From: Acidimicrobiales bacterium
GTDB taxonomy: Bacteria; Actinomycetota; Acidimicrobiia; Acidimicrobiales; RAAP-2
Length of the DNA stretch: 34,339 bases
Direction: 5' to 3'
Assembly (NCBI GenBank): GCA_017883025.1
Contig: JADGOH010000057.1
Location: forward strand, 1-34,339
Shown here: one piece after another, positions 485 to 16,146 of the stretch
How the letters are laid out: the number at the start of each line of letters is the position of its first letter
Numbering within the stretch: position 1 is the stretch's first letter
Position numbers and translations under genes: made by a program
Notes under the pieces: model-generated
Told to the model about the DNA's origin: nothing
Database searches by the model: none
The model's input: only the letters and a program-made list of their open reading frames with translations

Positions 485-2854
485 CTACTTGCCGGCGGCG
501 GCCGCCACCCGCCCGGCAACGGCGTCGAAGGCCGGGGAGAACACGTCACCGGGGATGGCCGGGCCGTTGGTCGACGGCGTCAGGATGGAGACGACCCGCC
601 CACCGAGCATGTAGGCGTCGCCCACCACCTCGGTGCCGGCGCCGGGCAGCGTGTAGGTCGTCACGACGCCGTAGGCCTGCACGCCGGTCGGGCCGGTCAA
701 CGTCACCGGCTGCACCGCGGCGGTCGCACCGGGGACGGCCCCGGCGGCCACCGCACCGGCATACTGCTGGAAGCAGGCGTCGAACTTCGGGTTGGTGAAC
801 ACGGCGTCGAGGGCCTGGACCTGGCCGGGCGACGCCAGCGTCATCGTCTTCGAGCCCATCTCGACCGTGGAGCCGGCCGCGCTCTGGAACGTCGGCGACT
901 GCACCAGGCTGGTCTGGTTCGGCAGCGAGCCGGCACTGAACAGGCCGGCCACGACGGAGTAGCTCGTGTTCAGGCACGAGGCCATCGAATTGGTGGCGTC
1001 GGCCTGCGCGACGGCCGGAGCCACCGGTGGGCGCACCACGGCCTGGGCCGGGGCGGCCTGGGTCCACCCGGACGGGAGGTCGGCCAGTCGGAGGTTGATG
1101 GAGCCGGCGAGCGCGGTGTCGGCCGCGGCCGACGCGGCCGACGACGCCGGAGCCGGTGCGGTGGACGTCGACGCGCTGTTGCGCTTGGAGAGCACGTATG
1201 CGGCTCCGCCGACCAGCACCAGGACCAGGGCGGCGACGAGGGCGATCACCGCGGCACGGTTGGGCTGCTTCTTCGCGGTCGCCAGCACGACACCGGATGC
1301 GGCCCCGGTACTCGAGGCGCCGTCGGCCGGGGTGCCGCCCGGGCCTCCGGTGAGGTCGTCGCCGGGGCCCGTCGTCGTCGGACCGGTAGCCGACACCGGC
1401 GCGGGCGGCTGCACGGCGAGCGGGACGGGGTCGGCGGGCGGTGCGGGCGGGGGCGGAGGTGCCATCGTCGGCGTCGGGCCGAAGAACGCCGTGCCGGGGG
1501 CCGTTGCTGCAGCCGTGGCCCCGGCAGCCTTGGACTTGCTCGGAGCCAACTTGTACCAGGGGGTCTTCGCGTCGGCTGCCGTCGTGTCGACGGACTCGGG
1601 GGGTGCTGCCGCCGGTGTCGCCGGTGGCGGGGCGGGCGGTGCGGGTGCGGCGGCAAACGGGGCGGGGGGAGGAGCGGGTGCCGGTGCCGCAGCAGTCGGT
1701 GCAGGCGCCGGAGCGGGTGTGTGGCCGCTGAGCAGGGCTTCGGTGGCGATAGGGGCGGCCATGGACTTCGGCTCGCGAGGGGCGAGCTTGTACCACGGCG
1801 TCTTCGCGTCCGCCGGTGGGGCGTCGGAGGTCGTCGTCGGCTCGATCCCGGGCGCCGCGGCTGCGGTGCCCACGGGTGCGGACGGTGCGGCTCCGACCGG
1901 GGTCGCCGGTGCGGCCTGCACCGCTTCGGGGGCGAGCGCCGCCGCGGCGCCTGCCGCTGCGGCGGTCTCGGTCGCCTTGGGCTTCCGCGGCGCCAGCTTG
2001 TACCACGGGGTCTTGGCCGGGGCTTCGGGCTCGGTCGACGCCAGCGGCGGGTCCTCCCACGCACTCGTGGGTGCAGGCGTGGGTGCCGAGAACGCCGACC
2101 CTCCGCCCGGCGGGGTCTGCGTCATGGGCGCCTGCGGCGCTGCCGGACGGAAGGTCGGTGCAGGCGTGGGCGGAGGTGGCGACCCTGCCGACGGCGCGGA
2201 CGGCGCGGGCGGTGGAGCGAGGCGCGAGCTCGGGGACATGTCGGGGGCCGTGCCGTCCACCGGAAGGGAACGGGTGCCGTTCTCATTGGCCGGCGGGCTG
2301 CTCGTCTCCAAGCGGTCGGCCGCGGTGACGCCGGCGACCGCACCGGCGGCGGCAACTCCGGCGGTGGCGTAGGACGGGGCCGGCGGTGGAGCGGGCGCCG
2401 CAGCCGCAGCCGCAGCGGGACCGGGTGCAGGGAGTTCCACGCCGATGTCGGCACCCTCGTACGCGGAAGCGGCGGCAGTTGCGCCCGCCATCTGGCCCTT
2501 GTAGCGGCCGAGCCACGCAGGAAGCGCCTGGTCGAGGTAGGCGGCTTGGCCGGGCGAGACGGTGTCGGTCGGGAGCAGGAACCGGATGGACTGGCCGCCC
2601 GAGGTGAGCTCCATGATGGCGGCCTCGCGGGCATCGGCCAACTGCACGACCTCGTGGCACGTGGCCGAGTCGAGCGCCGACCACACCAGGAGCCGCTCGA
2701 TCTGCGGCTGTGGGCCCTGCACGGTGATGCCGGCTGTCGTGAACAGCAGGCTGATCCCCTCGGTGGTCTTGGTCCCCCGGTCGGCGTCACCGGCCAGGGC
2801 GACACCCGGCAACTGCATGCCTTCCGGAGGCAACTCCGTTATCCCGACCGTCAT
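485..2854 (-). CDS. Membrane-anchored protein with Pro/Ala-rich linker and KTPWYKLAP repeats, function unknown
   Basis: A 789-residue protein whose family I do not recognise. I chose the ATG at 2854 because AAGGAG (2861-2866) sits six bases upstream; the frame stays open for 27 more codons. Residues 1-130 form a compact folded-looking domain without a signal peptide. A long Pro/Ala-rich linker follows, holding three copies of KTPWYKLAP near residues 281, 351 and 430. One hydrophobic helix lies at about 533-555 and a C-terminal domain of about 230 residues carries two cysteines (C627, C694) that could form a disulfide. The likely topology is N-in, C-out. The start of the outer domain (LRLADLPSGWT) recalls actinobacterial extracellular sensor or lipoprotein domains, but this is weak. 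It lies downstream of hemL with a 255-bp gap, so it probably has its own promoter. Confidence 0.8.
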   Translation of the reverse strand: MTVGITELPPEGMQLPGVALAGDADRGTKTTEGISLLFTTAGITVQGPQPQIERLLVWSALDSATCHEVVQLADAREAAIMELTSGGQSIRFLLPTDTVSPGQAAYLDQALPAWLGRYKGQMAGATAAASAYEGADIGVELPAPGPAAAAAAAPAPPPAPSYATAGVAAAGAVAGVTAADRLETSSPPANENGTRSLPVDGTAPDMSPSSRLAPPPAPSAPSAGSPPPPTPAPTFRPAAPQAPMTQTPPGGGSAFSAPTPAPTSAWEDPPLASTEPEAPAKTPWYKLAPRKPKATETAAAAGAAAALAPEAVQAAPATPVGAAPSAPVGTAAAAPGIEPTTTSDAPPADAKTPWYKLAPREPKSMAAPIATEALLSGHTPAPAPAPTAAAPAPAPPPAPFAAAPAPPAPPPATPAAAPPESVDTTAADAKTPWYKLAPSKSKAAGATAAATAPGTAFFGPTPTMAPPPPPAPPADPVPLAVQPPAPVSATGPTTTGPGDDLTGGPGGTPADGASSTGAASGVVLATAKKQPNRAAVIALVAALVLVLVGGAAYVLSKRNSASTSTAPAPASSAASAAADTALAGSINLRLADLPSGWTQAAPAQAVVRPPVAPAVAQADATNSMASCLNTSYSVVAGLFSAGSLPNQTSLVQSPTFQSAAGSTVEMGSKTMTLASPGQVQALDAVFTNPKFDACFQQYAGAVAAGAVPGATAAVQPVTLTGPTGVQAYGVVTTYTLPGAGTEVVGDAYMLGGRVVSILTPSTNGPAIPGDVFSPAFDAVAGRVAAAAGK
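1535..2014 (-). repeat. Three dispersed copies of a KTPWYKLAP-coding repeat
   Basis: Three copies of a roughly 33-bp unit lie inside the membrane-protein gene at about 1982-2014, 1772-1804 and 1535-1567. Each encodes KTPWYKLAP followed by a basic tail (RKPK, REPK, SKSK). They are 70 and 79 codons apart in low-complexity Pro/Ala sequence, where they are the only aromatic and basic islands. Confidence 0.85.
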
Positions 2855-3109
2855 GCCTCGCTCCTTCGTGGACAGGGTTGGTTCGCAATCGGGCGGCATC
2901 CGCCCGTCGGTCCTCGGTTCCCCCGTCGGGACCATCCCGGGCCAGACGGGTGAAGTGCGCGAATCCCGCGGGTCGACGCACCGTGTTCATTCTGCCCCAT
3001 GGGCGGACCGGAACGGGGGTACCCACGTACCACGCCCGTTTCATCGGCACCCCCAGGCGTCACCTTGAACGCCGCCCGCCGGCGACGTCCGCCACCGTCC
3101 GAGGGGCTG
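2855..3109. other. Intergenic region between hemL and the membrane-protein gene
   Basis: This 255-bp gap contains the ribosome-binding site of the downstream minus-strand gene (2861-2866) and presumably its promoter. I see no clear -35/-10 pair, no U-tailed terminator after hemL and no conserved small reading frame. Confidence 0.4.
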
Positions 3110-4438: not shown

Positions 4439-5444
4439 GCAGCACCTCGGCCAGCTCGCCGGCGAAGTAGGTCAGGACGAAGTCGGCGCCGGCCCGCTTG
4501 ACCGCGGTCACCTGCTCGAGGGCGACGGCCGGCCCGTCGATCCAGCCCCGTTCTGCCGCCGCCTTGACCATCGCGTACTCGCCGCTCACGTGGTAGGCCG
4601 CCACCGGCACGTCCACGGCGCCGCGCACCTCGGCCACCACGTCGAGGTAGGTGAGGGCCGGCTTCACCATGACCATGTCGGCCCCCTCGGCCACGTCGAG
4701 CACGACCTCGGCGAGTGCCTCTCGTCCGTTGCGCGGGTCCTGCTGGTAGCCCTTCCGGTCGCCGCCGCCCACGATGGTCACGTCCGCCGCCTCGCGGAAC
4801 GGGCCGTACAGCGCCGACGCGTACTTGGCCGCGTAGGCCAGGATCGCCGTGTTCGTGTGCCCGGCGGCGTCGAGGGAGGTCCGGATGGCGGCCACCTGGC
4901 CGTCCATCATCCCGCTGGGGGCGATCACGTCGGCGCCCGCCGCCGCCTGGACCACGGCCAGGTCGGCGTAGAGCTCGACGGTTGCGTCGTTGTCCACGTC
5001 CCCGGTCGACGGGTCGAGCACGCCGCAGTGCCCGTGGTCGGTGAACTCGTCGAGGCAGCAGTCGGCCATCACCACGAGGTCGTCGCCCACCGCGTCGCGC
5101 ACCGCCTCGAGTGCGCGCCGGGTAATGCCGTCGGGATCGAGCGCGGCCGAGCCGGTGGCGTCCTTGTCCCGTGGGCGGGGCAGGGGGAACAGGATCACGC
5201 CGGGGACGCCCAGGTCGGCCAGGCGCCGCACCTCCTCCACCAGGGACGGGATCGTGTGCTGGACCACGCCGGGGAGCGACCCCACCGGCCGCGGCACCTC
5301 GAGTCCGTCGGCCACGAAGAGCGGGGCCACCAGGTCGTCGGTCGTCAGCCGTGTCTGGGCCACCAGGCGGCGCAGGGCCGGGGTGCGGCGCAGGCGGCGC
5401 AGGCGGCGGGTGGGGAAGCCGGGGACGGCAGGGACGACAGGCAC
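4431..5444 (-). CDS. hemB: Porphobilinogen synthase (5-aminolevulinate dehydratase)
   Basis: It condenses two 5-aminolevulinate molecules to porphobilinogen. The protein has 337 residues from a GTG start at 5444, the only start before the conserved GFPTRRLRRLRRTPALRRL opening. The two Schiff-base lysines are K207 (AYAAKYASALYGPFR) and K261 (VMVKPALTYLD). The metal loop reads DCCLDEFTDHGHCG: two of the three classical zinc cysteines are in place (C130, C140), while the middle one is Asp (D132). This is intermediate between zinc-type and magnesium-type enzymes. The gene sits between hemD (52-bp gap) and hemL (8-bp overlap). Family call very secure; metal type undecided. Confidence 0.97.
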   Translation of the reverse strand: MPVVPAVPGFPTRRLRRLRRTPALRRLVAQTRLTTDDLVAPLFVADGLEVPRPVGSLPGVVQHTIPSLVEEVRRLADLGVPGVILFPLPRPRDKDATGSAALDPDGITRRALEAVRDAVGDDLVVMADCCLDEFTDHGHCGVLDPSTGDVDNDATVELYADLAVVQAAAGADVIAPSGMMDGQVAAIRTSLDAAGHTNTAILAYAAKYASALYGPFREAADVTIVGGGDRKGYQQDPRNGREALAEVVLDVAEGADMVMVKPALTYLDVVAEVRGAVDVPVAAYHVSGEYAMVKAAAERGWIDGPAVALEQVTAVKRAGADFVLTYFAGELAEVLHD

Positions 5445-5496
5445 GGTGTCCCAGCCTACGCCGACCCGGGCGCGCCCCCGGCCGGGCGGGCGGGCC

Positions 5497-6357
5497 TCAC
5501 CGGCGGCCGGACAGTGCGAAGGCGATCGCGGCCACCAGGCCGTCGAGGGTGTGCTCGACGGCCTCCACCGTCACCTCCAGCCCCGCTGCACGGGCGGACG
5601 CGCTGGTGACCGGGCCGATGGAGGCGACCACCGGCGGCACGCCGGTCACGCCCAGCAGGTCCACGGTCCGCTCCACCGTCGAGGACGAGGTGAAGGCCAC
5701 GGCGTCCGCAGCCCGCGCCGCCTCGACGGCCGTCGGGTCCACCTCGCCGGCCACGGTGCGGTAGGCGACGGCCTCGTCCACCCGCCAGCCTTTGGCCACC
5801 AGGCCCGGGGCGACCACGTCGCGCACCCGCTCGGCCCGGACGAAGAGCACCGCGCCCTCGCAGGTGCCGCTCCCGGGGGCCGCACCCGACGCAGTGGCGA
5901 CCGGGAAGGCCTCGACCAGCGCGTCCGAGACCGCGACGGGTGGCACCAGGTCGGGGACGATCCCCCGCGTCATCAGCGCCTTGGCCGTCGACGTCCCGAC
6001 GGCCGCCCACCGGGTGGCGGCGGGCGGCTGGCGCCGCCCGAGCGCGTCGACGAGCCGGGACACCGCGTTGGACGAGGTCACCACCAGCCACTCGTACTCG
6101 CCGGACACCACGCGGTCAGCGGCTGCAGCCAGTTGCGCTCCGCCATCGGCCGGCCCCTCGATGGCGATCACGGGCAGCTCGACCACCGCAGCGCCCAGGT
6201 CGGCCAGGCGCTGCACCAGCGTCGAGGCCTGCACCCGTGCCCGGGTGACGACGACGCGGGTGCCGGCGAGCGACCCCGGCGCCGGGACCGGCAGCGCCTC
6301 GGGCGGCGTGGGCGGGGGTCCCGGCCCGTGCCCGGACCCGTGGTCGGGGCCGTGCAC
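5497..6357 (-). CDS. hemD: Uroporphyrinogen-III synthase
   Basis: It closes and inverts ring D of hydroxymethylbilane to give uroporphyrinogen III, the branch point of heme, siroheme and B12. The 286 residues start at a GTG at 6357, five bases after the cobA stop. HemD is poorly conserved, but the bilobed pattern is visible: GTRVVVTRAR (32-41), VTSSNAV (93-99), VAYRTV (197-202), and FTSSSTVERTV (222-232), followed by SIGPVTSASARAAGLEV. The first about 28 residues are rich in His, Gly and Pro (HGPDHGSGHGPG), which is unusual and may bind metal or be unstructured. Position directly behind hemC and cobA supports the call. Confidence 0.93.
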   Translation of the reverse strand: MHGPDHGSGHGPGPPPTPPEALPVPAPGSLAGTRVVVTRARVQASTLVQRLADLGAAVVELPVIAIEGPADGGAQLAAAADRVVSGEYEWLVVTSSNAVSRLVDALGRRQPPAATRWAAVGTSTAKALMTRGIVPDLVPPVAVSDALVEAFPVATASGAAPGSGTCEGAVLFVRAERVRDVVAPGLVAKGWRVDEAVAYRTVAGEVDPTAVEAARAADAVAFTSSSTVERTVDLLGVTGVPPVVASIGPVTSASARAAGLEVTVEAVEHTLDGLVAAIAFALSGRR

Positions 6358-6361
6358 CGGC

Positions 6362-7087
6362 TCAGACCTCCGTCGCGACGACGGCTGTCACGTCGAGTGC
6401 GGCCACGGCGCCGACCACGATGGTCGCCGGCGCCTCGAGCCCGACCTCGGCCAGGCGGTCCAGGGTGGTGCGGGCCACCTCCTGGCGGTCGGTCGTCCCC
6501 CATCGCACCACGGCCACCGGGGTGTCGGGTCGGCGTCCGGCGGCCATCAGTCGCTCGGCGATCACCGAGCGGGCTCCCATGCCCATCAGGACGACCAGCG
6601 TCCCCTCGAGCCGGCCCAGCACGTCCCAGTCGACCCCGGGCAGCGTCGGGTCGCCGGCATGTCCGGTGACCACGGTCACCGAGGTGGAGACCGTCCGGTG
6701 GGTGACCGGGATGCCGGCGGCGGCAGGTGCGGCGAACGCCGAGGTCACCCCGGGGACGATCTCCACGTCGACCCCGGCGCGGCGCAGGGCCTCAGCCTCC
6801 TCGCCCCCGCGTCCGAACACGAACGGGTCGCCACCCTTCAGACGGACGACCCGGCGCCCGGACCGGCCGTAGGCGACCAGCAGCTCGTTGATGTCGGCCT
6901 GACGGCCGGACTGGCCGGGGCCCTTGCCGACGTCGACGAGCTCGGCCCCGTCAGGTGCCAACTCGAGGAGCTCGGCAGCGACCAGGCGGTCGTAGACGAC
7001 GACCTCGGCCGTCTCGAGGAGCTCGGCGCCACGGCGCGTCAGCAGCCCGGGGTCGCCGGGACCGGCCCCGACGAGGGCGACGGTCAC
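6362..7087 (-). CDS. cobA: Uroporphyrinogen-III C-methyltransferase
   Basis: This SAM-dependent enzyme methylates uroporphyrinogen III at C2 and C7 to precorrin-2, directing tetrapyrroles to siroheme and cobalamin. All signature motifs are present: VGAGPGDPGLLT (6-17), VYDRL (31-35), GKGPGQSGRQADIN (54-67), RLKGGDPFVFGRGGEE (82-97) and VPGVTSAFAAPAAAGIPVTHR (111-131, with R131). I chose the GTG at 7087, giving 241 residues, because it forms a GTGA overlap with the hemC stop and places the first motif as in the family; an in-frame start at 7102 would also be possible. It is a single-domain enzyme, not fused to HemD or to CysG-type domains. Confidence 0.95.
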   Translation of the reverse strand: MTVALVGAGPGDPGLLTRRGAELLETAEVVVYDRLVAAELLELAPDGAELVDVGKGPGQSGRQADINELLVAYGRSGRRVVRLKGGDPFVFGRGGEEAEALRRAGVDVEIVPGVTSAFAAPAAAGIPVTHRTVSTSVTVVTGHAGDPTLPGVDWDVLGRLEGTLVVLMGMGARSVIAERLMAAGRRPDTPVAVVRWGTTDRQEVARTTLDRLAEVGLEAPATIVVGAVAALDVTAVVATEV

Positions 7088-8046
7088 GACGCCGGGCTCC
7101 ACGGCCCGAGGTCGGACCCGCCGGCGTCGTCCAGCAGGTAGCGGGCCACGGACCGCCCGAGGGCGGGCCCGTCGTCGCCGGTCGCCTCGTGGCGCAGCAC
7201 CACATGACCGTCAGCACCGGCGAGCAGTCCGGTCAGCCGCAGGAGGGCCCCACCGGAGGCGCCGGTCCCGGACGGGGCATCGGCCACGGCGTGGGCACCC
7301 ACCGGCAGGGTGCAGCCGCCGCCCAGCTCGGCCAGGAACGCCCGCTCGGCCTCGACCACGGTCCGGACCCCGGCGTCGTCGATCGCCGCCAGCGAGCGTC
7401 TGGTCGCGTCGTCGTCGGCCCGGCACTCGACGGCCAGGGCGCCCTGGGCCACCTGGGGCAGCATCACGCCCGGCTCGAGCGTCTCGACCTCGACACCGTC
7501 GGGCGCCCGCCAGTCCAGCCGGTCCAGCGCGGCACGGGCGGCCACCACCGCGGTGATCCCCTCGTCCCCCACCCGGGCGAGCCGGGTGGCCAGATTGCCC
7601 CGGAGGTCCGCGAAGGTGAGGTCGGGCCGGAGGTTCGCCAGCTGCGACCGTCGGCGCGCCGACCCCGTGGCCACGGTGGCACCGGTGGCCAGCGTGTCGA
7701 GCCGGCCGCCCACCAGCACATCACGCGGATCGGCCCGCTCCGGGAATGCCGCCAGCACCAGTCCGGGGACCCCCAGGGCGTCGGATGCCGGCAGGTCCTT
7801 GGCCGAGTGCACGGCGGCGTCGGCGTCGCCCCTGGCCACGGCGGCCTGGACCTCCTTGACGAAGACCCCCTGGCCGCCCAGCTGGGACAGCGGCACGTCG
7901 GTGCGCCGGTCGCCCTCGGTGTCCACCAGGACGGGCGCGGCATCGATGCCGGCAGCCGCCAGCAGCGCGACGACGCGGTGCGCCTGCCACAGGGCGAGGG
8001 GGGAGCCGCGGGTGGCCAGCCGGAGCGGGCCCGGTGCCGAGGTCAT
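7084..8046 (-). CDS. hemC: Hydroxymethylbilane synthase (porphobilinogen deaminase)
   Basis: It polymerises four porphobilinogens to hydroxymethylbilane. I start it at the ATG at 8046 (320 residues), just before the conserved LRLATRGSPLALWQAHRV; the frame runs open further upstream but would then overlap hemA. Active-site features are the catalytic Asp D84 in HSAKDLP, the arginine cluster GSARRRSQL (128-136) and the dipyrromethane-cofactor cysteine C245 in LGGGCTLPVGAHA. The gene follows hemA after 20 bp and its stop overlaps the cobA start (GTGA). Confidence 0.97.
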   Translation of the reverse strand: MTSAPGPLRLATRGSPLALWQAHRVVALLAAAGIDAAPVLVDTEGDRRTDVPLSQLGGQGVFVKEVQAAVARGDADAAVHSAKDLPASDALGVPGLVLAAFPERADPRDVLVGGRLDTLATGATVATGSARRRSQLANLRPDLTFADLRGNLATRLARVGDEGITAVVAARAALDRLDWRAPDGVEVETLEPGVMLPQVAQGALAVECRADDDATRRSLAAIDDAGVRTVVEAERAFLAELGGGCTLPVGAHAVADAPSGTGASGGALLRLTGLLAGADGHVVLRHEATGDDGPALGRSVARYLLDDAGGSDLGPWSPAS

Positions 8047-8066
8047 GCAGCCCGACCGGTCATGGA

Positions 8067-9350
8067 TCAGATGTCGAACAGGGCGCGCAGCGCCTCGACG
8101 AGGCGCTCCCCCCGCGGGGTGCCGGCGGCCTCCTTGAGCGTGACCGTCGGCTGGTGCAGGAGCTTCGCCACGAGGGACCGGGTCACCGCGTCCACCTGTT
8201 CCCACTGCGCCTCGTCAAGGTCGGACCGCTTCGACCGCAGTCGCTCCAGCTCGGCCACCCGGGCGTCCTCCACGCGCATGCGGAGCGCCGACACGATCGG
8301 GGCGGCGTCGCGGGCGCGGGATGCCGCCCGGTACCGCTCCACCTCGTCGGTCACGATCCCCGAGGCGGCGGCCACCTCGTCCTGGCGCCCGCCGATCGCC
8401 TCGGCCACCGCGGCGCGCAGGTCCTCCATGTCGAGGAGGACGAGCCCGGCCAGGGTCGAGGCGTCGGGCTGCACGTTGCGGGGCACGCCCAGGTCGACGA
8501 CGACCAGGTCGCCCCGGTCGCCGCGCGGCGCCACGGCAGCCTCGAGCATCGCCCGGTCGACGACGGGGTGCGAGGTGCCCACAGTGGTGAGGACGACGTC
8601 GGACGACATCAGGAGCACGTCCAGACCGCCGAGGTCGGCGGACACCACCGAATCGGCCACACCGGGCGGCAGCGCGGCGACCACGGCCTCGGCCCGCTCG
8701 ACGGTCCGGTTGGCCACCACCACGTGGTCGACCCCGCGGCCGGCCAGCGCCTGGGTCACGCCTTCGCCCATCTCCCCGGCGCCGACGACGAGGACGCGGG
8801 CCCCGGCCAGCCCGCCCGGTCGGCGGTCAGCGGCCAGGGCGACGGCGCCGTGGGACAGCGAGGTGATGCCACGTGCGATGGCCGTCTCGGAGCGGACACG
8901 CTTGCCCGTCTCCACGGCGTGGCGGAACAACGTGCCGAGGACCGGGCCCGACGCGTGCTCGCCCTGGGCCCGCTCCCAGGCCCGGCGCACCTGGCCGAGG
9001 ACCTCGGACTCGCCGAGGACGGCCGACTCCAGGCCGGAGGCGACGGCGAACAGGTGCTCGATGACGTCGTCGTCGAAGCGGATCGTGCAGTACTCGCCGA
9101 GGGCGTCCACCGAGCTGCCGCTCCTGTCGGCGAGGAATTCCTGGATCTCGGCCACGCCGTCGTGGAACCGCTCGACGACGGCGTACACCTCGGTACGCAG
9201 GCAGGTCGACACCAGCACGGCTTCGGACAGGTTGGGCTGGTCGCGGAGGCGGCCGAGCGCCTTGGCGGTGTCCGCCTCGGTCACCGAGACGCGGTCCAGG
9301 AGCTCCAGCGGCGCGTGCTTCTGCTCGAGTCCGACGACGATCACCGACAT
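8067..9350 (-). CDS. hemA: Glutamyl-tRNA reductase
   Basis: It reduces glutamyl-tRNA(Glu) to glutamate-1-semialdehyde with NADPH, the first committed step of C5 tetrapyrrole synthesis. The 427 residues have the three-domain layout: catalytic domain with C50 in VSTCLRTEVY, GESEVLGQVRRAW, an NADPH Rossmann domain (VLVVGAGEMG) and a C-terminal helical dimerisation domain. The normally near-invariant Asn after the catalytic Cys (STCNRTE) is Leu here. The ATG at 9350 gives the expected MSVIVVGL opening. A 211-bp gap separates it from rex upstream, so the hem genes probably have their own promoter. Confidence 0.97.
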   Translation of the reverse strand: MSVIVVGLEQKHAPLELLDRVSVTEADTAKALGRLRDQPNLSEAVLVSTCLRTEVYAVVERFHDGVAEIQEFLADRSGSSVDALGEYCTIRFDDDVIEHLFAVASGLESAVLGESEVLGQVRRAWERAQGEHASGPVLGTLFRHAVETGKRVRSETAIARGITSLSHGAVALAADRRPGGLAGARVLVVGAGEMGEGVTQALAGRGVDHVVVANRTVERAEAVVAALPPGVADSVVSADLGGLDVLLMSSDVVLTTVGTSHPVVDRAMLEAAVAPRGDRGDLVVVDLGVPRNVQPDASTLAGLVLLDMEDLRAAVAEAIGGRQDEVAAASGIVTDEVERYRAASRARDAAPIVSALRMRVEDARVAELERLRSKRSDLDEAQWEQVDAVTRSLVAKLLHQPTVTLKEAAGTPRGERLVEALRALFDI

Positions 9351-9378
9351 GGGGCGGCCGCCTCGGTCGGTACGTGGC

Positions 9379-9417
9379 TCACAGGATCGGTCACTTGGTC
9401 ACAGCCTCGATGTCACA
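9379..9417 (-). promoter_or_regulatory. Clustered TGTGA half-sites in the hemA leader
   Basis: Read on the minus strand, TGTGA occurs at 9417-9413, 9403-9399 and 9383-9379, with a related AGTGA at 9395-9391, all within 39 bp and 29-67 bp before the hemA start. TGTGA is the half-site of actinobacterial Rex operators, but these copies are direct, not inverted, so this is not a canonical Rex box. A -10-like TAGGGT lies upstream at 9467-9462 on the same strand. The link to Rex is inference. Confidence 0.3.
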
Positions 9418-9561
9418 GCGTCGGACGACTCGGTCGATGGAACGGCACGTGCCTCCCGACCACCCTACCGAGCTACGGGAACCCGCCGGTCACCAGGGCC
9501 GACGTCGCCCCACCAGCATCGCGGCACCGGGCCGACCCCGCCAGTCGCCGGTTGCGGCCGC

Positions 9562-10350
9562 TCACGACGGGCCGGCCGGGGTGCGCCCGATCGATCGGAT
9601 CCTCGGCATCCGGGCGTCGGGGCCGGCGTCGAGTTGGCGGGCCTGGTAGAAGCTCATGACCTGGAGCTCCATGCTCAGGTCCACGTAGCGGAGGAGCACG
9701 CCGGGCGGTACGTCGAGCACCCGCGGTGCGAAGTTGAGCAGTGACCGCACCCCGGCGTCGACCAGCAGGTCCGCCACACGCTGGGCCACCGGGGCCGGGG
9801 TGGTGATGACACCGATCGACAGCGACGTGTCGGCGACGATCGAGGGCAGGTCGTCCGGGTGGCGCACGTCGATGCCGTCGATGCGCTCGCCGATGATCGC
9901 CGGGTCGGTGTCGATGAGGGCGGCCACCGTGAAGTTCCGCGCCGCGAAGCCCTGGCTGCGGGCCAGGGCCCGACCCAGGTTCCCGATGCCGGCGATCACG
10001 ACCGTCCATTCCCGGTCGAGCCCGAGCTGGCGGTCGATCTGCTCGACCAGGAAGGCGACGTCGTAGCCGGCGCCACGGGTGCCGAACGAGCCGAGGAGCG
10101 AGAGGTCCTTGCGCACCTTGGCCGCATTCACCTGGGCGGCGGCGCCCAGCAGCTCGGAGGAAACGGTGGACGTGCCGGACCGGAGGAGCTCCTCGAGGAT
10201 CCGCTGGTAGACCGGCAACCGTGCCACGGTGGCCTCGGGGATCCGTCGGCCCGCCGCACCAGGCGACACGGACCGGGGGCCGCTGATCGGCGGCGGAGGA
10301 TTACTCGGCACGGCAGGATCGTAGGGCGGCGGGACCGAGCGCGTCGTCAC
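9562..10350 (-). CDS. rex: Redox-sensing transcriptional repressor Rex
   Basis: Rex senses the NADH/NAD+ ratio and represses respiratory and, in Streptomyces, heme genes when NADH is high. The protein has up to 262 residues from a GTG at 10350; a second GTG at 10311 would shorten the low-complexity Pro-rich start. A winged helix (about 38-105, VYQRILEEL and VRKDLSLLGSFGTRGAGYDV) precedes the Rossmann domain with VIAGIGNLGRAL (118-129). The C-terminal domain-swapping helix follows (DLSMELQVMSFYQARQL). It lies 34 bp after proC and 211 bp before hemA; rex next to hemACD is the Streptomyces arrangement, so hemA is a likely target. Confidence 0.95.
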   Translation of the reverse strand: MTTRSVPPPYDPAVPSNPPPPISGPRSVSPGAAGRRIPEATVARLPVYQRILEELLRSGTSTVSSELLGAAAQVNAAKVRKDLSLLGSFGTRGAGYDVAFLVEQIDRQLGLDREWTVVIAGIGNLGRALARSQGFAARNFTVAALIDTDPAIIGERIDGIDVRHPDDLPSIVADTSLSIGVITTPAPVAQRVADLLVDAGVRSLLNFAPRVLDVPPGVLLRYVDLSMELQVMSFYQARQLDAGPDARMPRIRSIGRTPAGPS

Positions 10351-10384
10351 CCGGACCGGACCCGCCCCGCCGCGGTCGGGCCGG

Positions 10385-11176
10385 CTAGCGGCCGAGCTGC
10401 CTCGAGCGCTCGACGGCGGCGGCCACCGCCTCGATGAACGCGGAGCGCACGGCCTTGAACTCCAGGGTGCGCACGGCGGCGGCCGTGGTCCCGCCCGGCG
10501 ACGTGACCGCGGCCCGCAGCTCGGCGGGATCCTGGCCCGTTTCGTCCAGCATGCGGGCCGAGCCGAGGAGCGTCCCCACCACCAGCTGCCGGCTGACGTC
10601 CCGGGGCAGGCCGGCGGTGACGGCGGCGTCGATCATGGCCTCGGCCACCAGGAAGACGTAGGCCGGACCCGACCCCGACACCCCGGTGACGGCGTCGAGT
10701 TGACGCTCGGGGAGCCGGACGACCGTTCCGACGGCGCCGAGGATGCCTTCGGCCCAGGCGAGATCGGCCGACGTCGCCGCCATCCCACCCGACAGCCCGG
10801 CCACGCCGGCGCCCACCAGGGAGGGGGTGTTGGGCATGGCCCGCACCACGACCGAACCCGCCGGCATGACGGCCTCGAGCCGGGCCGAGGAGATGCCGGC
10901 CACGATGGACAGGACCCTGCGGGCACCGTTGGCGGCCAGCGTGAGCAGGACCGGCTCGGCCACGTCGGGCTTGACGGCGAGCAGCACGTCCTCCGCCTCG
11001 ACGGGGCCGGGCACGACGGTCAGGCCGGGATGGGCTGCTTCCAGTCGATCGCGCTGAGCGGCGTCGACCTCGCTGACGACGAGGTCGCCGATCGGGGCCC
11101 AGCCGGCGGCCACCAGCCCGCTGACCAGGGCCGAGCCCATCTTGCCGCCGCCGACCACGAGGAGCTTGGGTGCCAT
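10385..11176 (-). CDS. proC: Pyrroline-5-carboxylate reductase
   Basis: It catalyses the NADPH-dependent last step of proline synthesis. The 263 residues match the family. Motifs are VVGGGKMGSAL (7-17, nucleotide binding), AMPNTPSLVGAG, the signature VSGSGPAYVFLVAEAM and SPGGTTAAAVRTLE in the C-terminal dimer domain. The ATG at 11176 is unambiguous. It lies 80 bp after the YbjN gene and 34 bp before rex; a shared transcript with rex is likely, which would tie a metabolic enzyme to the redox regulator. Confidence 0.97.
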   Translation of the reverse strand: MAPKLLVVGGGKMGSALVSGLVAAGWAPIGDLVVSEVDAAQRDRLEAAHPGLTVVPGPVEAEDVLLAVKPDVAEPVLLTLAANGARRVLSIVAGISSARLEAVMPAGSVVVRAMPNTPSLVGAGVAGLSGGMAATSADLAWAEGILGAVGTVVRLPERQLDAVTGVSGSGPAYVFLVAEAMIDAAVTAGLPRDVSRQLVVGTLLGSARMLDETGQDPAELRAAVTSPGGTTAAAVRTLEFKAVRSAFIEAVAAAVERSRQLGR

Positions 11177-11256
11177 GGACGCACGCTACCAGCGGCCGTT
11201 TCGGCCTCCCGGGGTGCCATGCCGGCGGACCGGCAGGTCGTGCCCCGTCGCTGCGG

Positions 11257-11763
11257 TCAGCGCTCGGACTGCGGGCGGCGGCGGTACCGGCCCTCGTAGC
11301 CGAGTGACATCGCCGTCGGGAAACACTCGTCGGTGTAGGCCAGCGACGACCCGATGATGCGGTCCAACTCGTCGTCGTCCACCCGCGAGACGGGCACCCG
11401 GCCCACCAGGTAGACGGCGTCCTCCGCCCCCAGGGCGAACGACAGGCCGACCAGATCGGCATTGCGCGTGAGGAGGTACTGCCAGGTCGCCTCGACGTTC
11501 GTCTCGGGCGCGGGCATGAACTGCGTCTCGTGGCGCAGGGTCCGCTGGCGCAGGGTCAGCCACACCGTGACGAACTCCTTCTCCTCGCCTTGCAGCCGGA
11601 GGTACCACCGGGGTGCGCCCGTGACCGGGTCGCCGCCGGCCTGGCGGTCGACCGCCAGCAACGCCCCGCCGGTGGCCAGCTCTCGCTCGGCCCAGGCGTC
11701 GATCCGGGCGCAGACGGCGTCACGCTCGGCGGGCGCCAGGACGCCCGCCCACTCGTCGGTCAC
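11257..11763 (-). CDS. YbjN domain-containing protein
   Basis: A 168-residue protein of the YbjN type (fold shared with type III secretion chaperones). It begins at a GTG at 11763 whose GTGA overlaps the mshA stop by four bases. Recognisable elements are WYLRLQGEEKEFVTVWLTLRQRTL, the central PAPETNVEATWQYLLTRNADLVGLSFAL and the C-terminal DELDRIIGSSLAYTDECF. The biochemical role of actinobacterial YbjN proteins is not settled. The mshA-ybjN pair is a recurrent actinobacterial arrangement (M. tuberculosis Rv0486-Rv0487), which supports both calls and suggests a role tied to mycothiol metabolism. Confidence 0.88.
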   Translation of the reverse strand: MTDEWAGVLAPAERDAVCARIDAWAERELATGGALLAVDRQAGGDPVTGAPRWYLRLQGEEKEFVTVWLTLRQRTLRHETQFMPAPETNVEATWQYLLTRNADLVGLSFALGAEDAVYLVGRVPVSRVDDDELDRIIGSSLAYTDECFPTAMSLGYEGRYRRRPQSER

Positions 11764-13022
11764 CGGCACTCCACCAGCCGGCCCACCGTGAGGTCGGCGT
11801 AGATGTCGACCAGCAGGTGGGCGGCCCGGGCCCAGGTGTACCGGCGGGCCCGCAGGACCGACCCCGTGCTCAGGCGCTCGGCCAGCAGCGGCTCGGCCAG
11901 GATCTGGCGCACCCAGGCGGCGTACGCCTCGGGATCGGGCTCCTCCACGAGGTACCCGGTGCGACCGTGGTCGACCAGGCTGCGCAGGCCGCCGACGTCG
12001 GAGGCGACGACCGGCGTACCGCACGCCGCCGCCTCGAGCGCGACCAGTCCGAACGACTCCGAGCGACTCGGCACCAGGCACACGTCGGCCGCCCGGTAGA
12101 ACGTCGAGAGCAGCTCGTGGGGTCGTGGCGGCACGAACACCACCCGGTCCCGAAGCCCGAGCCCGTCGACCAGCTCGTCGATGCGCGCGACCTCCTCCTC
12201 GCCGTGGGGTCCGCTGGGGCCGCCGACGACGACCAGATGGGCGTCGGGCTGGTCCCGCACCACCGACGCCAGGGTGGCCACGGCGACCGCCGCCCCCTTC
12301 AGCGGCTGGATGCGGCCGACGAACAGGAGGAGCGGACCGTGGACGGGCAAGCCGAGGGCGCGGCGGGCCTGGGCTCGGTCGCCGGGACCGAAGAAGGCGT
12401 GATCCACGCCCGGGGCCACGATGCGGATCCGAGACGGGTCGGCACCGTAGAGCTCGGAGATCTGGGCGGCCTCGACCGAGCACGACGCCAGCACCGTGTC
12501 CGAGCACCGGATGATGGCCGCCTCGGCCTCGGCCCGGATGTGGCGCGAGTGGGCCTCGACCTCCTCGGGGCTGGCCTCCGCCTTGACCCGGTCCAAGGTG
12601 TGGAACGTCGACACCAGGGGGAGGTCGAGCTGGTGCTTGATGGTGTGGCCGGCGATGCCGCTCAACCAGTAGTTGGCGTGCACGGCGTCGAAGGGCAGGT
12701 CGTCGTGGCCTCCGTAGGCACCGGCCGAGGACATCGACTTGAGGACGCCATCGGCGAATTCGTCGACTACGCCGATGAGCGCCTCCTTGGGCAGGGGCGC
12801 AGGCGGGCCGGCGGCGACGTGGTGGAGGCGGAACCCGGGCTCGATCTCGAGGACGGTCGGCAGGTCGTCGGTGGCGGCCCGGGTGTAGACGTCGCACTCG
12901 ACGCCGGCACGGGCGAGGGCGGACGACAGCTCGCGCACGTACACGTTCATGCCACCACCGTCCCCGGTGCCGGGTTGCGCCAAGGGGGAGGTGTGGAGGG
13001 AGAGAACGGCGAGTCGCCTCAT
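11760..13022 (-). CDS. mshA: D-inositol-3-phosphate glycosyltransferase (mycothiol synthesis)
   Basis: MshA transfers N-acetylglucosamine from UDP-GlcNAc to 1D-myo-inositol 3-phosphate, the first committed step of mycothiol, the actinobacterial thiol buffer. The 420 residues show the GT-B/GT4 fold: HTSPLAQPGTGDGGGMNVYV (10-29), a very MshA-specific N terminus, then VHANYWLSG (114-122), FVGRIQPLKG (234-243) and the donor-site SESFGLVALEAAACG (321-335, Glu322 and Glu330). The ATG at 13022 is clear. It follows the XRE gene by 29 bp and is coupled to ybjN by GTGA. Confidence 0.95.
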   Translation of the reverse strand: MRRLAVLSLHTSPLAQPGTGDGGGMNVYVRELSSALARAGVECDVYTRAATDDLPTVLEIEPGFRLHHVAAGPPAPLPKEALIGVVDEFADGVLKSMSSAGAYGGHDDLPFDAVHANYWLSGIAGHTIKHQLDLPLVSTFHTLDRVKAEASPEEVEAHSRHIRAEAEAAIIRCSDTVLASCSVEAAQISELYGADPSRIRIVAPGVDHAFFGPGDRAQARRALGLPVHGPLLLFVGRIQPLKGAAVAVATLASVVRDQPDAHLVVVGGPSGPHGEEEVARIDELVDGLGLRDRVVFVPPRPHELLSTFYRAADVCLVPSRSESFGLVALEAAACGTPVVASDVGGLRSLVDHGRTGYLVEEPDPEAYAAWVRQILAEPLLAERLSTGSVLRARRYTWARAAHLLVDIYADLTVGRLVECR

Positions 13023-13051
13023 GCCGCGTCGATCCTACCGGGAGGGCCGCG

Positions 13052-13531
13052 TCAGCCCGCTGCTGCGGCCGGGTCGGCCACGCCGGACCCGCCGTCGGGC
13101 TCCTCCGGCGGTGGCACGGCCCCGATGTCGGTGCCGGGCGGCTCGAGGTCCTGGTTCTCGTGGCGGAACGACAGGTAGATCCGCATGAGCGCCTGGCGCT
13201 GCTCCTCGGTCAGGTGCTGGTCGGCGAAGATGTGCCGCGACAGGTCCGTGTCGCCGGTCGGGCGCTCCAGGATCCCCGCCTGCACGTACAGGGTCTCGGC
13301 GGAGATGCGCAGCGCCTTGGCGATCTGCTGGAGGATCTCGGCCGAGGGCCGGCGCAGCCCCCGCTCGATCTGGCTCAGGTAGGGGTTCGAGATCCCGGCC
13401 AGCTCGGACAGCCGGCGGAGCGACAGGCGAGCCGAGCTGCGCTGTTCGCGGATGAAGGACCCGAGTTCGTTGAAGCGCTCCGGCAGCTCCTTGACGAACC
13501 GGTCGCCGTCGTGGCCGACCGGGTCCTTCAT
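13052..13531 (-). CDS. XRE-family transcriptional regulator
   Basis: A 159-residue regulator with a Cro/C1-type helix-turn-helix at about residues 36-77 (LSLRRLSELAGISNPYLSQIE ends the recognition helix). The C-terminal part is helical (LTEEQRQALMRIYLSFR) with an acidic, Pro/Gly-rich tail. The HTH resembles a widespread actinobacterial family that includes the mycobacterial regulator encoded beside hbhA; its targets are not known to me. The ATG forms an ATGA overlap with the stop of the upstream RsiG-like gene, so the two are co-translated and may act in one circuit. It lies 29 bp before mshA. Confidence 0.88.
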   Translation of the reverse strand: MKDPVGHDGDRFVKELPERFNELGSFIREQRSSARLSLRRLSELAGISNPYLSQIERGLRRPSAEILQQIAKALRISAETLYVQAGILERPTGDTDLSRHIFADQHLTEEQRQALMRIYLSFRHENQDLEPPGTDIGAVPPPEEPDGGSGVADPAAAAG

Positions 13532-14070
13532 GACAGGAGGCCGTCCACCGACGCACGCCCCGACTTGTGGCGCTCGACCAGCTCCGCCTGGAGCGTGTCG
13601 ATCCGCTCGTGCAGGCCCCGTCGCTCGCCGGACACCCGGATCTCCAGTTCCTGGAGCCGGTTGGCCAGGTCGCGCAGCTCGTCCTCGGTCAGGTCAGCGA
13701 GGTGGCCGATCTCGTCGGCGCCGAGGATGGCGTCGAGCTCGGTGGTCAGCGCCTCCATGTCGTCCGTGTCCGGCGAGTAGAGCACCGGGTTGCGACCCGG
13801 GCCCGACGGCCGGCCGGGGCCGGCGAGGATCCCGGCCAGGTTGTCGACGACGCTGGACAGGTCGGGTGCGTCGGAGCCCGCGGGCCGCTCGAGGTAGGCG
13901 TGGACGATGTCCAGGCGACCCTGGATGAGTCGGCGCAGGTAGGAGAGGGACGCCTCCGCCTCCTGGCACTCGGTGCGCATACGACGGATGTCGTCGAGCG
14001 TCAACGACCCGACGTCCGCCAGGTAGGTCGGGGCGAGGAGTCGGCTCAGTTCGTCCAGGGTGCTCGGCAT
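13528..14070 (-). CDS. rsiG: RsiG-like c-di-GMP-binding anti-sigma factor
   Basis: A 180-residue, largely helical protein. RsiG of Streptomyces is an anti-sigma factor that, armed with c-di-GMP, holds the sporulation sigma factor WhiG; its coiled coil binds the dinucleotide through two E(X)3S(X)2R(X)3Q(X)3D repeats. Here the first repeat is perfect (E39, S43, R46, Q50, D54 in EASLSYLRRLIQGRLD) and the second matches at four of five positions (E143, S147, R150, H154, D158; Gln replaced by His). The ATG at 14070 lies in TGATG with the sodX stop; a GTG one codon earlier (14073) is equally possible. No sigma factor gene is in the window. Motif visible; ligand and partner inferred. Confidence 0.8.
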   Translation of the reverse strand: MPSTLDELSRLLAPTYLADVGSLTLDDIRRMRTECQEAEASLSYLRRLIQGRLDIVHAYLERPAGSDAPDLSSVVDNLAGILAGPGRPSGPGRNPVLYSPDTDDMEALTTELDAILGADEIGHLADLTEDELRDLANRLQELEIRVSGERRGLHERIDTLQAELVERHKSGRASVDGLLS

Positions 14071-14564
14071 CACGATCGATCGTACCCCCTGGGCCAGGGC
14101 CCAGGGCCGGTTCGGCCCGTCGGGGCGTAGCGGTAGACCGCACGGCCGACCACCGAGGCGACCGGGACGGGGCCGAACTGGCGGCTGTCGGTGCTGGCAC
14201 CGGGGTCGTCGCCGCGTAGCTCGAGCGTGCCGGCGGCCCGGTCCACGGCTGCCACCCGCTTCACCAGCGTGCGGTCCGGGTCACGGGGGTCGGCCACCGC
14301 CACGACGTCGCCGACCGAAGGCCACGCCGGGTTCCCCAGGGGTCGGGCCAGCACCAGGAGCCGGTCACCGGGAAGGAACGTGGGGGCCATCGAGCCGCCG
14401 GCCACCTCCACCCGTCGCAGGACCCGGGAGGCGGCCAGGCCGGCGCCCCCGAGCACCAGTCCGAGCAGTGCCGTCCGGAGCGCCACCCGTCGCCCCGTCC
14501 AGCCTTGTCGACGCCGGGGCGTGCCCGGGCCCGGACTGGGTAAGGTGGCGACGTCGGGGCCCAT
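14070..14564 (-). CDS. sodX: Nickel-type superoxide dismutase maturation protease
   Basis: An S26 signal-peptidase-like protease of 164 residues that removes the propeptide of NiSOD so that His1 can bind nickel. A hydrophobic segment (about 28-48) anchors it to the membrane. The Ser/Lys dyad is S58 in GGSMAPTFLPGD and K102 in TLVKRV; the GDDPGASTDSRQFGPV box (118-132) completes the family signature. I start it at the ATG at 14564; the frame stays open further but would run into sodN. It is divergent from sodN (122 bp), the standard sodN/sodX pairing, and its stop shares an A with the RsiG-like start. Confidence 0.9.
   Translation of the reverse strand: MGPDVATLPSPGPGTPRRRQGWTGRRVALRTALLGLVLGGAGLAASRVLRRVEVAGGSMAPTFLPGDRLLVLARPLGNPAWPSVGDVVAVADPRDPDRTLVKRVAAVDRAAGTLELRGDDPGASTDSRQFGPVPVASVVGRAVYRYAPTGRTGPGPWPRGYDRS
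14541..14546 (+). promoter_or_regulatory. Possible -10 element (TAAGGT) for sodN
   Basis: TAAGGT fits the actinobacterial TANNNT -10 consensus. It would give a leader of roughly 135 nt for sodN that overlaps the 5' end of divergent sodX. I see no good -35, so this is tentative. Confidence 0.3.
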
Positions 14565-14686
14565 CCCCCACTCTGTACCAGACGGGTCGGCGCCAGCCGT
14601 GCCCGGGCCCGGCGCGCGAGCGCCGTCCCGTCCGTCAAGACCCACCCGAGCACCCAGCACACCGAACCCAGGAAAGAGGAGCACCC

Positions 14687-15103
14687 ATGCGCATCGCAGA
14701 ACACCTGCTCGCCATTGCCGACCGCGTGTCACCCCCGACCGTCGTCCACGCCCACTGCGACCTGCCCTGCGGCGTCTACGACCCGGCCCAGGCACGGATC
14801 GAGGCCGAGTCGGTCAAGGCCACGATGGAGAAGGCCAACGCCTCGGACGACGAGACCTTCAAGGTCCGCGCCGTCATCATCAAGGAGGAGCGGGCCGAGC
14901 TGGTCAAGCACCACCTGTGGGTGCTGTGGACCGACTACTTCAAGCCGGAGCACCTCGAGCGGTTCCCGGACCTCCACGACAAGTTCTGGAAGGCCACCAA
15001 GACCGCCGGCGAGGCCAAGAAGACCAATGACGTGGCCGTCGGCGAGCGCCTGCTGGCCGAGATCGCCGAGATCGACGCCATGTTCTGGGAGTCGAAGAAG
15101 TAG
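14687..15103 (+). CDS. sodN: Nickel superoxide dismutase
   Basis: NiSOD dismutates superoxide in the cytoplasm. The 138-residue precursor has a 22-residue propeptide followed by the nickel hook HCDLPCGVY at 23-31: after cleavage before His23, the His1 amine and imidazole and Cys2 and Cys6 ligate nickel. The mature length of 116 residues matches known NiSODs and the remainder is the expected four-helix bundle. GAGGAG at 14676-14681 lies five bases before the ATG. The protease needed for cleavage is encoded divergently. Expression probably responds to nickel, as in Streptomyces, but no operator is evident. Confidence 0.97.
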   Translation: MRIAEHLLAIADRVSPPTVVHAHCDLPCGVYDPAQARIEAESVKATMEKANASDDETFKVRAVIIKEERAELVKHHLWVLWTDYFKPEHLERFPDLHDKFWKATKTAGEAKKTNDVAVGERLLAEIAEIDAMFWESKK

Positions 15104-15110
15104 GGACGCC

Positions 15111-15128
15111 GCCGGGGCCCGCCCCGGC
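15111..15128 (+). terminator. GC-rich hairpin after sodN
   Basis: GCCGGGG and CCCCGGC (15111-15117 and 15122-15128) form a perfect 7-bp stem with a 4-nt loop, starting eight bases after the sodN stop. No U tract follows, which is common for terminators in such GC-rich genomes. Confidence 0.45.
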
Positions 15129-15225
15129 ACACGATCCACGGTCCGACGGCCACGCACCCTGTGTGCGCGGCCGTCGCCGCGTCCGGGCGCTGGGCAGCGG
15201 CAAGCGGTCCGACCGCGAGGACCCG

Positions 15226-15322
15226 GTTGCCAGCGGTGAGACAGCGTCGTCCGGCGGCCTCCCTGTGACCTGTGTCAACTTCCCCCGGGGTTGGCAACGG
15301 GAACGACAACGGGGGTGGCAAC
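15226..15322. promoter_or_regulatory. GTTGNCAAC palindrome and half-sites upstream of a TetR gene
   Basis: A short palindrome GTTGGCAAC lies at 15290-15298, with further half-sites GTTGCC at 15226 and TGGCAAC ending at 15322, nine bases before the TetR start. TetR regulators usually bind such sites in their own promoter, so autoregulation is plausible but not shown. Confidence 0.3.
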
Positions 15323-15330
15323 ATGGCCAC

Positions 15331-15969
15331 GTGACCGAACCGGACGAGCGCCCGTATCACCACGGCAACCTCAGGCCGGCGCTCATCGAGGCCGCCGTGG
15401 CCCGTGCCCGGGCCGACGGGCCGGACGCCGTCAGCCTCCGGGACGTTGCCCACGACGTCGGCGTGTCCCCGTCCGCCGCCTACCGCCACGTGCGCGACCG
15501 CACCCACCTGATGACCCTGGTCTCACAGGTGGCCCGCCAGGAGCTGGCCCGCACCATGATCGACGGGCAGGACGCCGTGGTCCCGACCGGGGACGACGCC
15601 GCCGACGCGGTCGCCCGCTTCGAGGCGTGCGGACGTGGCTACATCGACTTCGCCACCCGGTCGCCCGAGCTGTTCCGCACGGCATTCCTGGCCACCGGCT
15701 GTGCTCCCGACACGGTCGACCATCCCGACCCGGCACTCGTCCTGGGCACGGCAGTGGACGGGCTGGTGGCCGCCGGGCTGCTCGAGGCGACCCGGCGCAT
15801 GGACGCCGCCCTCATCGCCTGGACCGCCGTGCATGGGCTCAGTGCCCTGCTGGTCGACGACATGGTGGTGCTCGGCTTCGGCATCGAGTCCGACCAGGCC
15901 CACCGGGCCGTCCTCGACGGCGTACTGCGCGCCATCGTCGGTCCGAGCGTCACGACGCCCACCCGCTGA
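15331..15969 (+). CDS. TetR-family regulator (WHG-domain type)
   Basis: A 212-residue repressor-type regulator. I chose the GTG at 15331 because the conserved opening YHHGNLRPALIEAAV (9-23) follows at once; this YHHGNLR start is typical of TetR regulators with a C-terminal WHG domain. The helix-turn-helix spans about 35-56 (SLRDVAHDVGVSPSAAYRHV). The ligand domain contains the family-typical FEACGRGYIDFATRSPELFRTAF segment. No obvious target operon lies next to it; sodN upstream is separated by 227 bp. Autoregulation is likely. Confidence 0.9.
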   Translation: MTEPDERPYHHGNLRPALIEAAVARARADGPDAVSLRDVAHDVGVSPSAAYRHVRDRTHLMTLVSQVARQELARTMIDGQDAVVPTGDDAADAVARFEACGRGYIDFATRSPELFRTAFLATGCAPDTVDHPDPALVLGTAVDGLVAAGLLEATRRMDAALIAWTAVHGLSALLVDDMVVLGFGIESDQAHRAVLDGVLRAIVGPSVTTPTR

Positions 15970-16028
15970 GTCCGACGAGGGGTTCGCCGATCGGGGCACC
16001 GTCGGAAGGAGTTCGGCGCACCACCCGT

Positions 16029-16057
16029 CCGAATCCGTCGTCCATGCGCCGATTCGG
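16029..16057 (+). terminator. Weak inverted repeat downstream of the TetR gene
   Basis: CCGAATC (16029-16035) and GATTCGG (16051-16057) can pair over a 15-nt loop, 60 bp after the TetR stop. It may be a terminator for that gene, but the stem is short and there is no U tract. Confidence 0.25.
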
Positions 16058-16116
16058 GGCGCGTAATGCCTGTTCAGAAGCGAATTGCCGGAAATCGGGA
16101 ACATCCTCGAGAAATC

Positions 16117-16146
16117 GCTCAAGTTCCGGCCGGTGCATGCCGATAC
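16117..16146 (+). promoter_or_regulatory. WhiG/FliA (sigma-28)-type promoter-like site, copy 1
   Basis: GCTCAAG (16117-16123), exactly 15 bases, then GCCGATAC (16139-16146). The layout fits promoters of WhiG and FliA-type sigma factors (CTCA or TAAA, about 15-17 bases, GCCGA-TA). The 40 bases upstream also resemble a second copy near 29714, including GAATT and GAAATC blocks. Transcription would head toward the 3' end of the minus-strand zinc-finger gene; no plus-strand gene starts within 500 bp. Confidence 0.5.

Follow-up and report, generated by a model that had tools for sequence, protein, structure and literature searches.

A twin-motif RsiG-family protein encoded between sodX and xre in an Acidimicrobiales genome, a probable partner of WhiG

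Between a nickel superoxide dismutase maturation gene and an XRE regulator gene of an Acidimicrobiales genome lies a gene whose product resembles RsiG, and this locus raises the question of whether the protein is a c-di-GMP-dependent anti-sigma factor and whether its position ties c-di-GMP signalling to redox genes. We analyzed the window, that is, the whole stretch of 34,339 nucleotides of contig JADGOH010000057.1, together with related genomes. The protein belongs to the already known RsiG family, as the preliminary description had correctly assigned it. The Pfam RsiG profile PF22802 matched it at 104.8 bits (cut-off 27, E 1.9e-30), and in a phmmer search against solved structures Streptomyces venezuelae RsiG (6pfj/6pfv) aligned with residues 18–179 (E 9.5e-19); given these two E values, the likeness lies far beyond chance. 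In the same search, RsiG of entries 7lq2–7lq4 matched helix 1 only (E 4.8e-5 to 6.6e-5). Inspection of the open reading frame placed the start at the ATG at 14070, a GTG at 14073 also being possible. One chain carries two E(X)3S(X)2R(X)3[Q/H](X)3D motifs, and the earlier observation of a perfect motif followed by one with Gln replaced by His was confirmed at residues 39–54 and 143–158. The protein is therefore of the twin-motif kind and, since a helix bearing the second motif is present, not of the single-motif homodimer kind known from Rubrobacter.

Table 1 Features of the rsiG locus in the window. Motif coordinates were computed from residues 39/54 and 143/158 with the ATG at 14070 as the start.
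Feature	Position	Strand	Description
YbjN-domain protein	11257..11763	-	PF10722, E 2.7e-8; overlaps the mshA-like gene
mshA-like GT4 glycosyltransferase	11760..13022	-	PF00534; TIGR03449 407.7 bits, below the cut-off of 462.5
xre	13052..13531	-	HTH_3 regulator; PF01381, E 8e-13; start overlaps the rsiG stop by 4 bases
rsiG	13528..14070	-	twin-motif RsiG, 180 aa; putative c-di-GMP-dependent anti-sigma factor (PF22802, 6pfj, AlphaFold2 model)
motif 2	13597..13644	-	E143 S147 R150 H154 D158, EIRVSGERRGLHERID; His for Gln; on predicted helix 129–169
motif 1	13909..13956	-	E39 S43 R46 Q50 D54, EASLSYLRRLIQGRLD; perfect; on predicted helix 25–60
sodX	14070..14567	-	nickel superoxide dismutase maturation protease; TIGR02754 67.1 bits (cut-off 63.25); start codon tentative
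sodN	14687..15103	+	Ni superoxide dismutase; TIGR02753 160.7 bits (cut-off 90); divergent

An AlphaFold2 model, built from an alignment of 11 sequences (the window protein and ten relatives' loci), gave two long helices that bear the motifs, with a mean pLDDT of 79.1 and values below 50 at residues 84–99. Ten named relatives are metagenome-assembled genomes, six labelled Acidimicrobiaceae, three Acidimicrobiales and one only Actinomycetes bacterium. Foldseek against the PDB returned only three matches at E ≤ 0.001 (6pfv_T, 6pfv_E and 6pfj_T), all from S. venezuelae RsiG–WhiG entries and with TM scores of 0.61–0.64 by query length. The predicted structure is a two-helix coil as in 6pfj, whose antiparallel order we infer from the fold match; the helical hairpin that had been named as a check on the assignment thus appears in the model, each helix bearing one motif. 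With S. venezuelae RsiG (6pfj/6pfv) the window protein shares the single chain with two motifs, homology over residues 18–179, the predicted fold and a WhiG partner gene in the genome, but S. venezuelae RsiG has Gln in motif 2 where the window protein has His. With Rubrobacter RsiG (7lq2–7lq4) it shares the motif-bearing helix 1, whereas that protein is presented in the relevant sections of PMC8325347 as a single-motif homodimer. According to the same sections, Rubrobacteria and Thermoleophilia have single-motif forms, and twin-motif RsiG, of the same kind as the window protein, was found in three of four Acidimicrobiales species. It is highly probable that the protein is an ordinary twin-motif RsiG, a monomeric component of a c-di-GMP/WhiG switch.

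The window's own genome (2.5 Mb, 71.65% complete) supplies the partner. A WhiG/FliA-type sigma factor, for which a genome search had been suggested, is present: Sigma70_r3 matched at four places, of which the one on contig C106 is WhiG (ORF 1156..1992 of locus L004), scoring 358.3 bits with NCBIfam NF004935 (cut-off 343) and 308.1 bits against 6pfj_A. This gene lies on another contig than rsiG. Furthermore, the genome contains 11 GGDEF matches. Owing to the family, the fold, the WhiG gene, the GGDEF matches and the co-occurrence of RsiG with FliA/WhiG described below, a c-di-GMP/RsiG/WhiG switch very likely operates in this organism. By analogy with published Streptomyces and Rubrobacter work, from which c-di-GMP binding, WhiG binding and the direction of control are carried over, the RsiG monomer would fold into an antiparallel two-helix coil and bind two c-di-GMP molecules through both E-S-R-Q/H-D motifs. 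RsiG armed in this way would hold the WhiG encoded on contig C106, and a fall in c-di-GMP would free the sigma factor.

We then compared the distribution of the two proteins across genomes. PF22802 matches were found in 247 of 395 genomes of the class, 10 of 41 of the family and, in a phylum sample with class members among its genomes, 200 of 296; relatives of the window protein occur in 13 of the 14 genus genomes, its own counted. These counts extend the known range of the RsiG–WhiG switch to 247 of the 395 sampled class genomes. FliA_WhiG scored above cut-off in 255 of the 395; for the crossing with RsiG, genomes whose best E fell below about 1e-55 were counted as above cut-off, again 255 in all. 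Both proteins were present in 237 class genomes, RsiG only in 10, WhiG only in 18 and neither in 130, a table on which a Fisher test ignores kinship; with the 42-genome clade f34 left out, the counts are 237, 10, 18 and 88. Joint absence stands beside joint presence within at least nine families (f1, f2, f3, f4, f6, f13, f15, f39 and f50), a pattern in the profile matches that argues for repeated joint loss of RsiG and WhiG. Among the 41 family genomes, nine have RsiG together with a FliA_WhiG match below 1e-75, and the two exceptions both fall in genus g361, G688 with RsiG alone and G674 with such a FliA_WhiG match alone. Incompleteness fails to explain all discordant class genomes, as G122 and G205 are 96% and G360 95% complete; G205 has a weak RsiG match (2.1e-6). 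Some of the 18 genomes counted as WhiG only may hold other FliA-type sigma factors, their scores being weak (down to E 3e-56). That two unlinked genes are present together and absent together supports their acting as a pair. PF22802 matched five times in genome G461 and six times in G506; as one twin-motif protein often accounts for two matches, these numbers suggest several RsiG copies.

Chance similarity does arise among coiled coils, and the protein might merely resemble RsiG without acting on WhiG; the near full-length match to 6pfj, the fold match and the presence and absence shared with WhiG speak against this, and we consider it extremely improbable. The histidine of motif 2 raises a different doubt, namely that the motif is degenerate, so that c-di-GMP would sit on one helix only or the protein would form a Rubrobacter-like dimer. 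Motif 2 is indeed looser than motif 1, ESR[QH]D being kept in 51 as against 57 of 71 distinct class rows, a non-random sample drawn from the genus, from selected neighbourhoods and from the loci with the best scores. In these rows the fourth residues of motif 1 and motif 2 were Q/H in 39, Q/F in 14, H/H in 9, H/Q in 7, H/Y in 1 and Q/Y in 1, so that Phe or Tyr takes the stacking place of motif 2 in 16; in 20 further rows, drawn from other parts of the phylum, they were Q/Q in 7, Q/F in 3, H/L in 2 and H/H, Q/L, H/M and Q/I in 1 each, with one motif missing in 4 and Leu, Met or Ile at the motif 2 place in 5. Against degeneration, all 11 close sequences keep the E, S, R and D of motif 2 unchanged; H154 is kept in 10 of them and replaced by Phe in the remaining one. 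Moreover, no residue other than H, F, Q or Y takes this place among the 71 class rows, which fits stacking, and the AlphaFold2 model places both motif helices in a single chain. Degeneration or dimerization is thus very improbable. The relevant sections of PMC8325347 describe the motifs as well conserved save for a frequent Q-to-H change in motif 1, and state that His is able to make the same stacking as Gln. The Q/H variation reported there thus concerns motif 1, whereas the His of the window protein stands in motif 2, and those sections make no mention of His or Phe in motif 2, which the present counts reveal as a common state in the class. The preliminary description had suggested an intermediate between one-motif and two-motif forms, a suggestion that we do not uphold, because both helices lie in one chain, His can stack like Gln and Q/H is the commonest state in the class. 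In three loci from elsewhere in the phylum (L098, L099 and L101), motif 1 has His and the stacking place of motif 2 has Met or Leu, residues not expected to stack as Gln and His do.

The ordinary twin-motif RsiG favoured here overlaps the genes on either side of it, as had been claimed: the sodX stop and the rsiG ATG share one base, or more with the GTG start, and the overlap with xre is equally real. The XRE regulator may be kin of mycobacterial Rv0474. The name mshA-like is the safe one for the glycosyltransferase gene, because its best model, MshA, scores below the curated cut-off; for the same reason, mycothiol synthesis is not to be assumed. One tRNA also lies in the window. Of the 13 rsiG-bearing genomes in the genus, all have sodX upstream and all have xre; the mshA-like gene is present in 12, the 4-base rsiG/xre overlap is possible in 12, and sodN is present in 12, the contig of the remaining one ending there. 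We examined neighbours in 40 class loci, two of which lie in the genus. Downstream of rsiG on the same strand, xre was found in 25 and the mshA-like gene in 35, each being on the opposite strand in one further locus; of the 38 loci outside the genus, sodN lies near rsiG in 4, and the fetched stretch of the other 34 gave no sodN match. Other parts of the phylum likewise show rsiG next to xre and an mshA-like gene, with rsiG followed by xre on one strand in 11 of 16 twin-motif-like loci (L105 included). Around rsiG of three presumed Streptomyces genomes, a 19.5-kb stretch gave no xre or mshA match, whereas the window rsiG has both, and no such match was found in the stretch around the single-motif-like loci L111–L114. 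Literature searches pairing RsiG with mshA or with Acidimicrobi returned nothing related by title beyond PMC8325347.

Does this arrangement bear on function? The adjacency that led to the proposal of a tie between redox genes and c-di-GMP signalling is real, and a shared transcript of sodX, rsiG and xre could serve to tune c-di-GMP/WhiG output with oxidative-stress genes; the overlapping sodX–rsiG–xre genes, the upstream sodX in all 13 rsiG-bearing genus members, the 4-base rsiG/xre overlap possible in 12 of them and the four class loci outside the genus with sodN nearby would all suit a functional operon position. The family loci around xre tell against it. Among 20 such loci, 5 with and 15 without rsiG, the mshA-like gene is kept in all 20, and sodN and sodX remain upstream of xre in 12 of the 15 rsiG-less ones, in one of which (L181) about 0.7 kb separates sodX and xre. 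In three rsiG-less loci (L175, L176 and L193), a possible xre start and a sodX stop share 4 bases. The sodX–xre adjacency is therefore independent of rsiG and gives no evidence of a functional link; the redox proposal accordingly lacks support. Nor do the 34 class loci lacking a sodN match favour it, and no spacer-15 flagellar-type site with up to three mismatches lies at 3068–16119 of the window, the nearest being at 16120, about 1 kb past the end of sodN. Taken together, a redox-tuned operon is improbable. The genomes of the five rsiG-bearing loci all showed a FliA_WhiG match below 1e-75, as against none of the 15 without, one of which (G679) has weaker FliA_WhiG matches above cut-off; judged by these scores, none of the 15 has WhiG proper. 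Because the whiG match follows rsiG while the neighbours stay without it, rsiG travels with whiG and not with its neighbours. Thus, xre, the mshA-like gene and sodX probably tell little about the job of rsiG, and operon position alone would mislead on function.

Finally, we searched for possible WhiG targets. Flagellar-type consensus promoters have a spacer of 15. With the consensus hexamers given in the relevant sections of PMC8325347, the window contained four matches at up to three mismatches, as compared with a shuffle mean of 1.47 and 10 of 100 shuffles that reach four. The exact consensus with spacers of 14–16 gave no match in the window's own genome, in which spacer 15 with up to two mismatches gave 9 matches versus 1 in the reversed control; across the 14 genus genomes the same search gave 285 versus 289, and no regulon emerged from that scan. 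PF00437, the type IV pilus ATPase, had no match in the 71.65% complete own genome. A motif assembled from matches, TCAAGT-N13..15-CCGAT, occurred at 10 sites in 95 sequences (the window and 94 loci, 1.34 Mb) versus none in the reversed control and one or two in each of six Markov simulations; it was picked after four of its ten sites had been seen, and four of the ten belong to two genomes of one family. Two variants were rejected, CTCAAGTT with 18 sites versus 35 in the reversed control and AAATC-n-TCAAGT with 2 versus 1. Given the post hoc choice, the family-biased sites, the weaker variants and the lack of convincing genes behind the window sites, the motif is a lead only. Six loci, most of which have TCAAGT-N13/15-CCGAT sites, gave no Rfam match that reached the gathering threshold.

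A speculative and rather unlikely extension would be that RsiG–WhiG of Acidimicrobiia governs, instead of sporulation or type IV pili, an undescribed set of genes, perhaps including some for secreted proteins with TCAAGT-N13/15-CCGAT promoters, and that rsiG and the unlinked whiG are lost together, rsiG dropping cleanly from between sodX and xre. At 16119 (+) and 29716 (+) of the window, GAAATC stands shortly upstream of CTCAAGT-N13/15-CCGATA, which is sigma-28/WhiG promoter-like, with no convincing downstream gene; the site at 16119 (+) is then followed by what by eye is an inverted repeat. In loci L045 (12678, −) and L069 (12856, −), from two genomes of one family, TCAAGT-N13/15-CCGAT lies about 30 bases before a gene whose product has, by eye, a signal-peptide-like N-terminus; the two also share a second site (14887/14966), with no clear long gene behind it.
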